Shown here one piece after another: positions 3,781-6,547 of a DNA stretch of 9,431 nt. The first letter of the stretch is position 1, and the number at the start of each line of letters is the position of its first letter. Below the pieces are notes generated by a model, which saw only the letters and a list, made by a program, of their open reading frames with translations, was not told the origin of the DNA and did not search any database. The stretch comes from Bacteroidota bacterium. GTDB taxonomy: Bacteria > Bacteroidota > Bacteroidia > Bacteroidales > GCA-2748055. The translations under genes and the position numbers were made by a program. The DNA lies in NCBI GenBank assembly GCA_024244665.1, contig JAAEOI010000123.1:1-9431 (forward strand), read 5' to 3'.

Positions 3781-3788
3781 CAAAGATA
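3781..3788 (-). promoter_or_regulatory. -7 promoter element (TATCTTTG) for the glycosyltransferase
   Basis: The minus strand reads TATCTTTG, a perfect match to the Bacteroidota -7 consensus TAnnTTTG, 20 bases upstream of the glycosyltransferase ATG. I see no clear TTTG or TTG at the expected -33 position, so the promoter may be weak or need an activator. A small palindrome lies directly upstream, between the -7 and -33 positions. Confidence 0.45.
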
Positions 3789-3791
3789 AAC

Positions 3792-3803
3792 ATGTAAATA
3801 CAT
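3792..3803. promoter_or_regulatory. Palindrome ATGTA-AA-TACAT, candidate operator
   Basis: Five-base inverted repeats flank a two-base centre in the 88-base region between the divergent glycosyltransferase and Rrf2 regulator genes. The right side extends to AAATACATC, whose complement GATGTATTT matches the core of the NsrR half-site AAGATGYATTT known from Proteobacteria and Firmicutes (9 of 11 positions over 3796-3806). It could be an autoregulatory site for the adjacent Rrf2 regulator. It is short and could occur by chance. Confidence 0.3.
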
Positions 3804-3849
3804 CAGCGATATGACCGGAATTATTAATTTCGCACATGAACCATGAGAA

Positions 3850-4260
3850 ATGAATTTCAGCAAAACCACATCCTACGCCATTTCAGTCCTCAGTTTCATG
3901 GCCGATCATGATAATGAGAAATACTCGGCAAAGAAACTGCATGAGCTTCTGGAGATCCCCTGGCCCTATTTACGGCAGTTGCTGACAAATCTCTCCAAAA
4001 GCGGTTTCATCTACAGTTCCCGGGGGCGAAACGGGGGCTTTCAATTGCTAAAGCCTGCCAATCAGATCATCCTTGCCGAAATTATTGACCAGGTGGAGGG
4101 CCTGCATGTGTTGAATAAATGCATCATGGGATTTACTAATTGCCCTTTTAACCACACATGTACCATGCACGAAGTGTGGGATGAGACCCGGAAAAGCATC
4201 CTTAATATCCTGAACAACACTACCTTGAATCAACTTGTAGAAGCAGGAAAGAGCAGTTAA
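3850..4260 (+). CDS. Rrf2-family transcriptional regulator with three cysteines (NsrR/IscR-like)
   Basis: DNA-binding regulator of 136 residues, close to the usual Rrf2 length. It opens with MNFSKTTSYAISVLSFMA, the standard first helix. Residues 25-60 form the winged helix-turn-helix (AKKLHELLEIPWPYLRQLL, then a wing containing RGRNGGFQL at 58-66). Cys91, Cys98 and Cys104 (spacing C-x6-C-x5-C), with His107 nearby, sit where IscR, NsrR and RsrR bind an Fe-S cluster. Those family members sense cluster status, nitric oxide or redox state. The gene is followed after 68 bases on the same strand by subunit II- and subunit I-like genes of a heme-copper reductase, so the simplest reading is a local regulator that responds to NO or Fe-S damage and controls that unit. 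Which ligand it senses is inferred. A non-cluster Rrf2 repressor remains possible, but three cysteines in place argue against it. Confidence 0.9.
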   Translation: MNFSKTTSYAISVLSFMADHDNEKYSAKKLHELLEIPWPYLRQLLTNLSKSGFIYSSRGRNGGFQLLKPANQIILAEIIDQVEGLHVLNKCIMGFTNCPFNHTCTMHEVWDETRKSILNILNNTTLNQLVEAGKSS

Positions 4261-4286
4261 TTTTTTTGTAATAATATGCTATATTG

Positions 4287-4297
4287 AGGTTGCATTT
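4287..4297 (+). promoter_or_regulatory. Candidate NsrR-like half-site upstream of the subunit II-like gene
   Basis: AGGTTGCATTT matches the NsrR half-site AAGATGYATTT at 9 of 11 positions and lies in the 68-base gap between the regulator and the subunit II-like gene. A similar 9 of 11 half-site lies in the region upstream of the regulator. The consensus comes from other phyla, so this is a weak, context-supported call. Confidence 0.22.
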
Positions 4298-4317
4298 TTT
4301 TTATCACTAAATTTAAA

Positions 4318-4325
4318 AAGGAGGT
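4318..4325 (+). promoter_or_regulatory. Strong Shine-Dalgarno sequence AAGGAGGT
   Basis: AAGGAGGT stands three bases before the ATG at 4329, an almost full complement of the 16S rRNA tail. It fixes the start of the subunit II-like gene. Bacteroidota genes rarely rely on such sites, and no comparable site is seen before the neighbouring starts. Confidence 0.65.
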
Positions 4326-4328
4326 CAT

Positions 4329-4892
4329 ATGGTTGATTCTGCCCTGGTCCTGAAAGGACAAACGATTGCTTACACCTGTTACACAATTGTCATCATGCTG
4401 GTGATGGCCTGGTTTGCACTTCGTGTAACCAAAACAGGTAAAAGTAAAGTAAAACCAGCTCTGTTTTTCACATTTGTCGGATTTCTTACCCTGCTGGGAG
4501 TCTCCCTGCACATCATCACCTACAACACCATTCCCTGGTCTGAGATGGATCTCAAACGCCATGAGATTACCGCCGACAGGTCTTTCGCCATTGAAGTGGC
4601 GAACCATGAATTCATCCTTCCATCTGACAAACTGGTGGTGGAGGTGGGTGAGATTGTGGAGTTCGATGTTACTTCGATGGATCTGACCTATGGATTCGGA
4701 CTATTCCGGGAGGATCAGTCCATGCTCTTCCAAATGCAGGTTGTTCCGGGTCACCGTAACGATATCCTATGGAAATTCCTGCAACCCGGAACCTATACCA
4801 TCCGGTCGACCGAATACTCAGGGCCAAAAGGAGTGGCCATGGTTGTTGAAAATGCAGTGGTGGTGGTTCCCTCCGGATCCGGCACTGAATAA
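4329..4892 (+). CDS. Cytochrome oxidase subunit II-like protein lacking all CuA ligand side chains
   Basis: Membrane-anchored protein of 187 residues with subunit II topology: hydrophobic helices at about 12-32 and 45-65, then a cupredoxin-like domain (about 85-180) expected on the periplasmic side. The CuA loop can be aligned without gaps. The canonical Cys-x3-Cys-x3-His-x2-Met appears here as Ser160-TEY-Ser164-GPK-Gly168-VA-Met171, and the upstream His of the DVIHSF-type strand is Tyr121 (DLTYGF). Both cysteines and both histidines are therefore gone, while the middle Glu162 and Met171 remain. Such a domain cannot hold a dinuclear CuA centre, as in quinol oxidase subunit II (CyoA), so electrons probably do not arrive from cytochrome c through this subunit. 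It lies 29 bases before the subunit I-like gene, and the two surely form one complex. It has no lipoprotein signal, unlike CyoA. Confident in homology; the structural or quinol-related role is inferred. Confidence 0.85.
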   Translation: MVDSALVLKGQTIAYTCYTIVIMLVMAWFALRVTKTGKSKVKPALFFTFVGFLTLLGVSLHIITYNTIPWSEMDLKRHEITADRSFAIEVANHEFILPSDKLVVEVGEIVEFDVTSMDLTYGFGLFREDQSMLFQMQVVPGHRNDILWKFLQPGTYTIRSTEYSGPKGVAMVVENAVVVVPSGSGTE

Positions 4893-4921
4893 CCCCATTG
4901 TTAACCAAAAAATCACACTAC

Positions 4922-6547
4922 ATGTCATTTATTTCTACACTCATGAAAGGCGAACAGGGCATTTTCAAAGCTGAATCCCTCACCGCCATGCAGAAGCTAT
5001 CCCTCAGGTTCGTCGTGGTGGGCCTGGTCTACTATCTCTTTGTACTCATTGAAGGAATGCTCATGCGAATATACGAAGTGGAGCAGATTGCCATGATTTC
5101 GAAGGATCAGTTTTTCGCCATCCTGACGGCTCACCCGCTGGTGGGCATCTTCGGATCTACCTACTCTATCGTTATGGGGGCCTTTCTTTTCCTGGTTCCC
5201 TTCCTCATGAAAAAGCCTCTCTACAGCATGAAGCTGGCCCACTGGAACTTTTTCCTGGTCACAGCCGGCACATTCATTTTCTGGCTGGCCGGATTTATCT
5301 CCCATTACGCTCCACTCTACACCCTTTACTGGCCGCTTCCTGCGGATTTCAGTCAGTTCAGCCCGGTGGGAGGAGCCATCTTTATCCTGGGGATCGCCCT
5401 GGTAATGGTGGGTTCAGTATTTTTCATCATTAACGTTTTTAAAACCATTACCTACACTCCTGAAGGCTGGGAAAAACAGCCGGCAGGTAAGTTGTTGGGA
5501 TCAGCCCTGGGAACAGCCGGAATTGCAAACCTTTTCAAGAAAAAAGAGCATAGGAAAGAGCACCTGGTATCACTACCCGTAGCTGCCATCGCACGGGGAA
5601 CTGTAGATATGGCCCTGAATGCCGGGATCATCCTCTTCACCGGAGTCCTTATCCTGGTCTATATGGTAGCAGCCATCATGGGATTTGACCTGCAGGAGAC
5701 TTCCGTCGATGCACTTCTTTATAAAAACTGGTTCTGGTGGGGACTGGACCTGATAGCCGACGGACTGGTGCTGATCTTTGTGGCTGGTACCTGGTACCTT
5801 CTGGCCACCATGATCACAGGGAAGAAGCTGTTTATGCAGAATATTGCCAGGGCAGCATTGCTCCTGGAGCTGGTGGTTTCGTGGACCGTCTGGTCACACC
5901 ACCTACTTTCGGACCAGTCCCAGCCCGGAATCCTGAAGGTTCTGTCGGGTGAGATGGTCACCGCCTTTGAACTGATTACACAGGGACTGGCTTTCTTTAT
6001 TACACTGGCCACACTCTGGGCAGCACGACCCTTAAAAATGACCAACGAGTTGAAATTCCTACTGGGTGGACTGCTTGGTTTTGCCCTGGCTGTTCCGGCA
6101 GGAATCATGCAGGCCGACGTGGGACTGAACCGTATCCTGCACAACACCCAGTGGATCGTTGGACCCCACGTGCATGTGGCTATACTGGTGGGTCTGACCA
6201 TGACCCTCTATTCGGCCATCTACCTGCTCCTGCCCATTCTCACCAACGGAGCAAAACTTTACAGCCAGAAACTGGCCAATCTCCACTTCTGGTGCCACCT
6301 TGTGGGTGGCATTGGCATGGGTGCATTTATGGGAATGGCAGGACTGAAAGGGATGCTCAGGAGAACCCTCTACTTTGAAGGAGAGTTTGACCTCTATATG
6401 ATTCTTGCCCTGGTCTGCGGGGCACTCCTGCTGGTTGCTTTCCTCGCTTTCTTCATCAACATTGTGATGAGCGTCGGGATCAGGGGAGTGATCGGTATAT
6501 TCTCCCCGGTAAAGAATAAAAACAAGGACCTGCTTCCTTCCAGCTAA
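4922..6547 (+). CDS. Heme-copper oxidoreductase subunit I-like protein, probable non-canonical nitric oxide reductase
   Basis: Integral membrane protein of 541 residues with about 12 predicted helices, the catalytic-subunit fold of the heme-copper superfamily. I start it at ATG 4922, preceded by an A-rich stretch; a TTG at 4898 would add eight residues. His71 (TAHPLVG, helix 2) and His418 are the expected low-spin heme ligands, His416 the active-site heme ligand, and His326-His327 (WSHHLL, helix 7) two ligands of the active-site metal. The third metal ligand, normally His in helix 6, is Asp276 (WFWWGLDLIADG). Asp280, four residues on, falls where NO reductases have Glu and A-type oxygen reductases have Tyr. 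With no such Tyr and an acidic residue in its place, NO reduction is more likely than O2 reduction. HNTQW at 407-411 is conserved, but GPHVH has one residue more than usual before the HxH pair. The mRNA ends at the terminator 27 bases downstream. No subunit III or cytochrome c gene is present. I recall that an Asp replacement has been noted in NO reductase-like groups such as gNOR, but cannot check membership here. Confidence 0.85.
   Translation: MSFISTLMKGEQGIFKAESLTAMQKLSLRFVVVGLVYYLFVLIEGMLMRIYEVEQIAMISKDQFFAILTAHPLVGIFGSTYSIVMGAFLFLVPFLMKKPLYSMKLAHWNFFLVTAGTFIFWLAGFISHYAPLYTLYWPLPADFSQFSPVGGAIFILGIALVMVGSVFFIINVFKTITYTPEGWEKQPAGKLLGSALGTAGIANLFKKKEHRKEHLVSLPVAAIARGTVDMALNAGIILFTGVLILVYMVAAIMGFDLQETSVDALLYKNWFWWGLDLIADGLVLIFVAGTWYLLATMITGKKLFMQNIARAALLLELVVSWTVWSHHLLSDQSQPGILKVLSGEMVTAFELITQGLAFFITLATLWAARPLKMTNELKFLLGGLLGFALAVPAGIMQADVGLNRILHNTQWIVGPHVHVAILVGLTMTLYSAIYLLLPILTNGAKLYSQKLANLHFWCHLVGGIGMGAFMGMAGLKGMLRRTLYFEGEFDLYMILALVCGALLLVAFLAFFINIVMSVGIRGVIGIFSPVKNKNKDLLPSS

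Follow-up and report, generated by a model that had tools for sequence, protein, structure and literature searches.

The window analysed here, a 9,431-nucleotide stretch of DNA (contig JAAEOI010000123.1) from a Bacteroidota bacterium of the Bacteroidales, carries on its plus strand genes for an Rrf2-family regulator, a small membrane cupredoxin and a subunit I of the heme-copper superfamily, in that order (Table 1). Unrelated minus-strand genes border these three and encode a DUF5916/CBM9-like protein, a family 2 glycosyltransferase, ArfB and a SNF2-type helicase. The start of subunit I was taken to be the ATG at position 4922, in an open frame that begins at a TTG at 4898. The protein scores below every NCBIfam cut-off, and its closest genome relatives among the matches listed are found in Bacteroidales metagenome genomes (92% and 90% identity). 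Many of its relatives are publicly named cytochrome c oxidase subunit I or cbb3-type oxidase subunit I.

Table 1. Genes and subunit I residues of the Rrf2 - subunit II - subunit I locus, in window coordinates.
Feature	Position	Strand	Support
Rrf2-family transcriptional regulator, with Cys91, Cys98, Cys104 and His107	3850..4260	+	Pfam Rrf2, E 3e-32
Subunit II (norH-like), two membrane helices plus cupredoxin domain lacking the CuA cysteines	4329..4892	+	
Subunit I, heme-copper superfamily, probable gNOR type (norG-like), 541 aa	4922..6547	+	Pfam COX1, 181.5 bits; own clade, 100/100
His71, low-spin heme ligand	5132..5134	+	Conservation
Helix VI, residues 264-299	5711..5818	+	Secondary structure of model; low confidence over residues 261-290
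FWWGLDLIADG coding stretch	5732-5764	+	ATG at 4922 as start
Asp276 codon, helix VI metal-ligand His position	5747..5749	+	GAC
Asp280 codon, oxidase Tyr / NOR Glu position	5759..5761	+	GAC
His326 and His327, metal ligands	5897..5902	+	Conservation
Glu350 codon, aligned to Glu280 of cNOR	5969..5971	+	Alignment
His416 (high-spin heme ligand) and His418 (low-spin heme ligand)	6167..6175	+	Conservation

The original prediction held that helix VI of subunit I carries an aspartate in place of an active-site metal histidine, and a second aspartate at the position of the NOR glutamate or oxidase tyrosine. Both residues are read directly from the DNA, within the FWWGLDLIADG stretch, and alignment to ba3-type chains of T. 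thermophilus (e.g. 4n4y_A) agrees, placing Asp276 on the helix VI histidine and Asp280 on the tyrosine four residues on (presumably H233 and Y237, respectively). The Asp276 column is histidine in all 32 references from other heme-copper groups under three of four alignment settings, so that a check for a true helix VI histidine in the window protein returned aspartate on the histidine column in these three, the fourth setting (genafpair) placing Asp276 one column off the reference histidine.

Conservation was assessed on a sample of the family comprising 241 sequences: the window protein, its best 120 relatives, and the best 120 relatives of a Chloroflexota-type protein (that of locus L107, from a genome in the phylum of an Anaerolineae-titled bin, with named relatives in the Chloroflexota). 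Within this set Asp276 is kept in 240 sequences and Asp280 in all 241. In the Bacteroidota-type part, Asp276 is present in 120/121, the sole exception being P0016 with Asn, and Asp280 in 121/121, and both are kept in 120/120 relatives of the Chloroflexota-type protein; over a 54-row alignment, the window protein and the Chloroflexota-type rows share 40-43% identity. The remaining heme and metal histidines (71, 326, 327, 416 and 418), which had been predicted to be retained, occur at exactly those positions and are invariant in the 241 sequences, the His71 column being His in all 46 rows of the tree described below as well. At the DNA level, 89 of 89 loci encode Asp at both positions with varying codons (58 GAT and 31 GAC for Asp276; 52 GAT and 37 GAC for Asp280), and their 27-base stretches over this region comprise 85 distinct sequences. 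Since both codons switch between GAT and GAC without change of residue, these results, together with the conservation, mark strict selection rather than chance, decay or sequencing error. The loss of a canonical ligand is what a decaying or mis-sequenced oxidase gene might present, and the original prediction had already judged the gene intact; with 137 columns kept at 98% or above in the 241 sequences and only silent codon changes at the two sites, that explanation is refuted and retains a negligible probability.

A third acidic residue, Glu350, is invariant in the same 241 sequences. Its column contains Glu in 6/6 cNOR/qNOR-like references and no acid in any of the 26 others, under all four alignment settings. 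In the cNOR-like reference L121, the aligned Glu lies 21 residues past the second histidine of the pair (counted by eye); the same distance separates Glu280 from His259 in P. aeruginosa cNOR, as its residues are named in the portion of PMC3431322 consulted, where Glu211 and Glu280 are reported to be critical. In its residues, the family sharing Asp276 and Asp280 (Asp/Asp family) has a cNOR-like acid cluster in which Asp276 replaces one histidine. Like cNOR and qNOR, the window protein has no active-site Tyr and places Glu350 where cNOR has Glu280, whereas those enzymes have His at the helix VI ligand and Glu at +4, where it has Asp and Asp, and fall in a separate clade. With sNOR-like proteins it shares Lys-Asn ahead of helix VI and Asp331 and Gln334 behind the histidine pair, but these proteins keep the His ligand, have Asn at +4 and lack Glu350. 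The sNOR label (His, with Asn at +4) is based on Table A4 of PMC8756737, an excerpt of which gives Asn for sNOR and Gln for eNOR at +4; the window protein has Asp280 there and neither of the two. Three proteins from the Bacteroidota phylum (L111, L112 and L113) with Asn at +4 are sNOR-like by motif and have Asp331 and Gln334 as in the Asp/Asp family. One extra residue ahead of the heme-ligand histidine pair (window 6155-6175, Trp411 to His418) was observed in 14/14 members of the Asp/Asp family and in 0/32 references.

To place subunit I among heme-copper enzymes, we inferred a maximum-likelihood tree of 46 rows (14 Asp/Asp, 16 A-type, 2 B-type, 5 C-type, 6 cNOR/qNOR-like and 3 sNOR-like proteins, with no named gNOR among them). 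The first reference alignment comprised 31 proteins, L128 having been dropped as a wrong-frame ORF, and the further A-type proteins L098, L099, L100 and L103 were left out to keep the reference set small. The 14 Asp/Asp proteins group in a single clade (100/100) that excludes the A-, B- and C-type, cNOR/qNOR-like and sNOR-like rows. The tree does not resolve how the A, B, sNOR-like and Asp/Asp clades branch relative to one another, and it carries a program warning of meeting long branches; the kinship to the B family of oxygen reductases that is ascribed to gNOR hinges on this branching order. The window protein was thus not recovered among the oxygen reductases sampled, as had been anticipated.

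These comparisons bear on whether the enzyme might be a quinol-using oxygen reductase with an altered metal site. Fold and superfamily are shared with oxygen reductases, the subunits II of bo3 and other oxidases are among the structure matches of the window subunit II, and relatives are publicly named cytochrome c oxidase, but the combination of helix VI His and Tyr at +4 that marks A- and B-type enzymes is absent from the window subunit I. The B-type ba3 enzyme of T. thermophilus differs in having the His ligand and Tyr, and E. coli cytochrome bo3 (CyoB, CyoA), alike in fold and in a subunit II with an oxidase fold, differs as an A-type enzyme with His and Tyr at the site and with the channel Lys. 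The A-type channel Lys position is Ala or Thr in 14/14 aligned members of the Asp/Asp family, and Glu350 is as in the cNOR/qNOR types. Given these residues and a tree position apart from the sampled A, B and C clades, we regard oxygen reduction as quite improbable.

The best single-sequence matches of subunit I among solved structures are B-type T. thermophilus ba3 chains. In a separate fold search, cNOR and qNOR do not appear among the 50 rows listed, which is no evidence of difference. The model of subunit I has low confidence at the metal site (block means of 55-61 over residues 261-290), and Asp276 is for this reason put forward only as a candidate metal ligand. Subunit II, modelled with a pLDDT of 86.1, scores under the cut-off of the CoxB model and has structure matches to oxidase subunits II (of bo3 and others) and to CuA domains. 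The CuA cysteine positions are occupied by Ser160 and Ser164 in 30/30 sequences; the first CuA histidine position is Tyr in 30/30 and the second Gly in 29/30, while the Met is kept in 29/30. The subunit II of E. coli bo3 (CyoA) likewise has no CuA. The window subunit II, on these residues, is predicted to be a CuA-less subunit as in quinol-using enzymes, and it adjoins subunit I in 80 of 81 loci, the two forming a two-gene unit.

The gNOR site is reportedly described by Murali (2024). The combination of traits found here corresponds to gNOR, which in the sources consulted is a prediction from sequence only (PMC11388526). In the sections consulted, gNOR is listed with an active-site Asp at the Tyr/Glu position and no proton channel, in Sulfurimonas, Sulfurovum and Persephonella (PMC8756737, Table A4 for the residues); it is described as a two-gene (norGH), quinone-oxidising and non-electrogenic enzyme (PMC8906906), and a two-gene gNOR is listed in Ca. 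Methylomirabilis (PMC6094997). An excerpt of PMC6349771, contrary to PMC8756737 and PMC8906906, counts gNor among the NORs predicted to conserve energy, and NORs including gNOR have been classified over bacterial genomes (PMC12569097, in part). The consulted portion of PMC3475470 reports NORs without the active-site Tyr of the oxidase position and states that the metal His is replaced by Asp in 'certain NOR types', so that the substitution itself is already published; this statement cites the Sulfurimonas genome paper (Sievert 2008), a citation from which we infer that gNOR is meant.

The window enzyme agrees with these descriptions in having Asp280 at the Tyr/Glu position, Asp276 in place of the metal His, the other five histidines of the sextet, and two subunits with a subunit II devoid of CuA cysteines. 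No difference emerged in this comparison, which was made against the published descriptions, as far as the excerpts extend, and not against a named gNOR sequence. The original suggestions of a two-His, one-Asp metal site, of chemistry on NO and not O2, and of a protein of gNOR type or a relative are supported by its Asp/Asp residues, two-gene unit and CuA loss to the extent that these excerpts describe gNOR. A separate NO reductase family, sister to or convergent with gNOR, would also accommodate the two deep Asp/Asp clades, 40-43% identical, and, with gNOR compared by description, a named gNOR could fall outside both; the gNOR traits tested with a clear outcome (both Asp residues, the retained histidines, and a two-gene unit lacking CuA cysteines) are nevertheless all present in the window enzyme, and we consider such a family unlikely. 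Glu350 and the Rrf2 linkage go unmentioned in the portions of the gNOR descriptions compared; Glu350 as a trait common to cNOR/qNOR, and the linkage to Rrf2, may be new.

The regulator exceeds the cut-off of the Rrf2 superfamily model only and falls under those of NsrR (63.5 vs 182 bits) and IscR. It is an Rrf2-family protein, and sensing of NO would be its putative function. Of 81 loci, 50 have an Rrf2 gene alongside the two subunit genes, and the three Cys and the His are kept in 50/50 of these proteins; in 31 of 80 loci, some on short contigs, no Rrf2 gene was found. Scanning one neighbour gene in each of 10 Rrf2-less loci yielded a Crp/Fnr-type regulator once (L008), a monooxygenase domain once (L064), a short protein in L066, four unrelated families and three genes without a match. 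The L066 product (2357-2812), a membrane protein of small size, matches COX1, DUF2871 and NnrS below threshold and is encoded 76 bases upstream of subunit II, where the regulator would be expected. At the Chloroflexota-type locus L107, genes for an NDH-2-like pyridine nucleotide oxidoreductase and for a His-rich, membrane-like protein of 451 residues without a Pfam or NCBIfam match border the pair (at 1-1353 and 3782-4573, minus strand).

A site unlike any solved one, with a geometry of low confidence in the model, leaves some room for an enzyme or sensor of another small molecule (e.g. NO dismutation or hydroxylamine-type chemistry), or for an Asp276 that does not bind metal. The neighbourhood points to no other substrate, as any gene other than those for Rrf2 and the two subunits recurs in at most 9 of the 81 loci, and we assign this explanation a very low probability.

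The distribution of the gene and the gene content of its carriers were examined to gain insight into its physiological role. In a draw from the phylum of genome G001, 10 of 296 genomes carry the gene; these ten include the genome at the centre of the draw, a gene that is split and a fragment of 94 residues. For three other phyla, draws that likewise counted their centre genomes gave 1/120, 2/251 and 2/199 genomes with a match, the two matches outside the centre genomes being proteins of 45% (G650) and 76% (G851) identity. Plasmid records contain 29 matches to subunit I, all below 60% identity and, where annotated, called oxidases, and a search of viral contigs returned no match to subunit I.

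Among the 45 of 80 genome loci taken into a count of heme-copper genes, 14 carrier genomes, their completeness not being given, have this gene as their sole PF00115 match at E 1e-20, and cytochrome bd is present in all 11 of these that were tested. Cytochrome bd is commoner in carriers than in non-carriers (31/40 vs 14/40, p 0.0003), and so is NrfA (19/40 vs 6/40, p 0.003); NosZ, searched as the Sec type (TIGR04246) with the TAT type outside the search, was found in 5/40 carriers vs 11/40 other genomes of the phylum (Fisher p 0.16). The samples behind these three counts are unmatched, with 30 of the 40 carriers coming from the subunit I match list and the 40 controls and most remaining carriers from the phylum draw, so that kinship and lifestyle confound them. 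A role in full denitrification was set aside, as NosZ is not commoner in carriers. The data suggest, with a confidence kept modest because carriers and controls are unmatched, that the enzyme detoxifies NO in hosts that are mostly anaerobic and in many cases able to reduce nitrite to ammonium.

Taken together, the Rrf2 - subunit II - subunit I operon probably encodes a gNOR-type (norGH-like), quinol-dependent nitric oxide reductase. Alongside the residues, their conservation, the gene order, the loss of the CuA cysteines and the separate clade observed for the window enzyme, we infer its metal, substrate, electron donor, regulator signal and physiology as follows. Quinol would donate electrons to the low-spin heme, ligated by His71 and His418, from which they would reach a binuclear site. 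This site would combine the high-spin heme (ligand His416) with a non-heme metal whose ligands would be His326, His327, Asp276 and possibly also Asp280. Because the site is rich in oxygen ligands, iron would be favoured over copper as the metal. At this site the enzyme would couple two molecules of NO and reduce them to N2O, with Asp280 and Glu350 putatively aiding proton delivery, as the matching cNOR glutamates are thought to do. The Rrf2 protein, whose Cys3-His set would suit an Fe-S cluster, may release the operon when NO reaches the cluster. In most hosts the enzyme would serve in NO detoxification beside cytochrome bd, often with nitrite ammonification, rather than in full denitrification.

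More tentatively, and as a possibility that we hold to be well short of probable, the family may represent a NOR line outside cNOR/qNOR in which the metal site was rebuilt as a two-His, multi-carboxylate iron centre (Asp276 and Asp280, with Glu350 nearby) and the Glu280-type glutamate was gained independently of cNOR/qNOR, the enzyme being the only heme-copper enzyme of some anaerobic Bacteroidota and removing NO under an Fe-S Rrf2 switch. The conserved Asp276, Asp280 and Glu350 provide clear residues for testing a two-His/carboxylate metal site in a heme-copper enzyme. If the proposed function is correct, a capacity to form N2O in the Bacteroidota and Chloroflexota would be easily misread as oxygen respiration, because many relatives of subunit I are publicly named cytochrome c oxidase.
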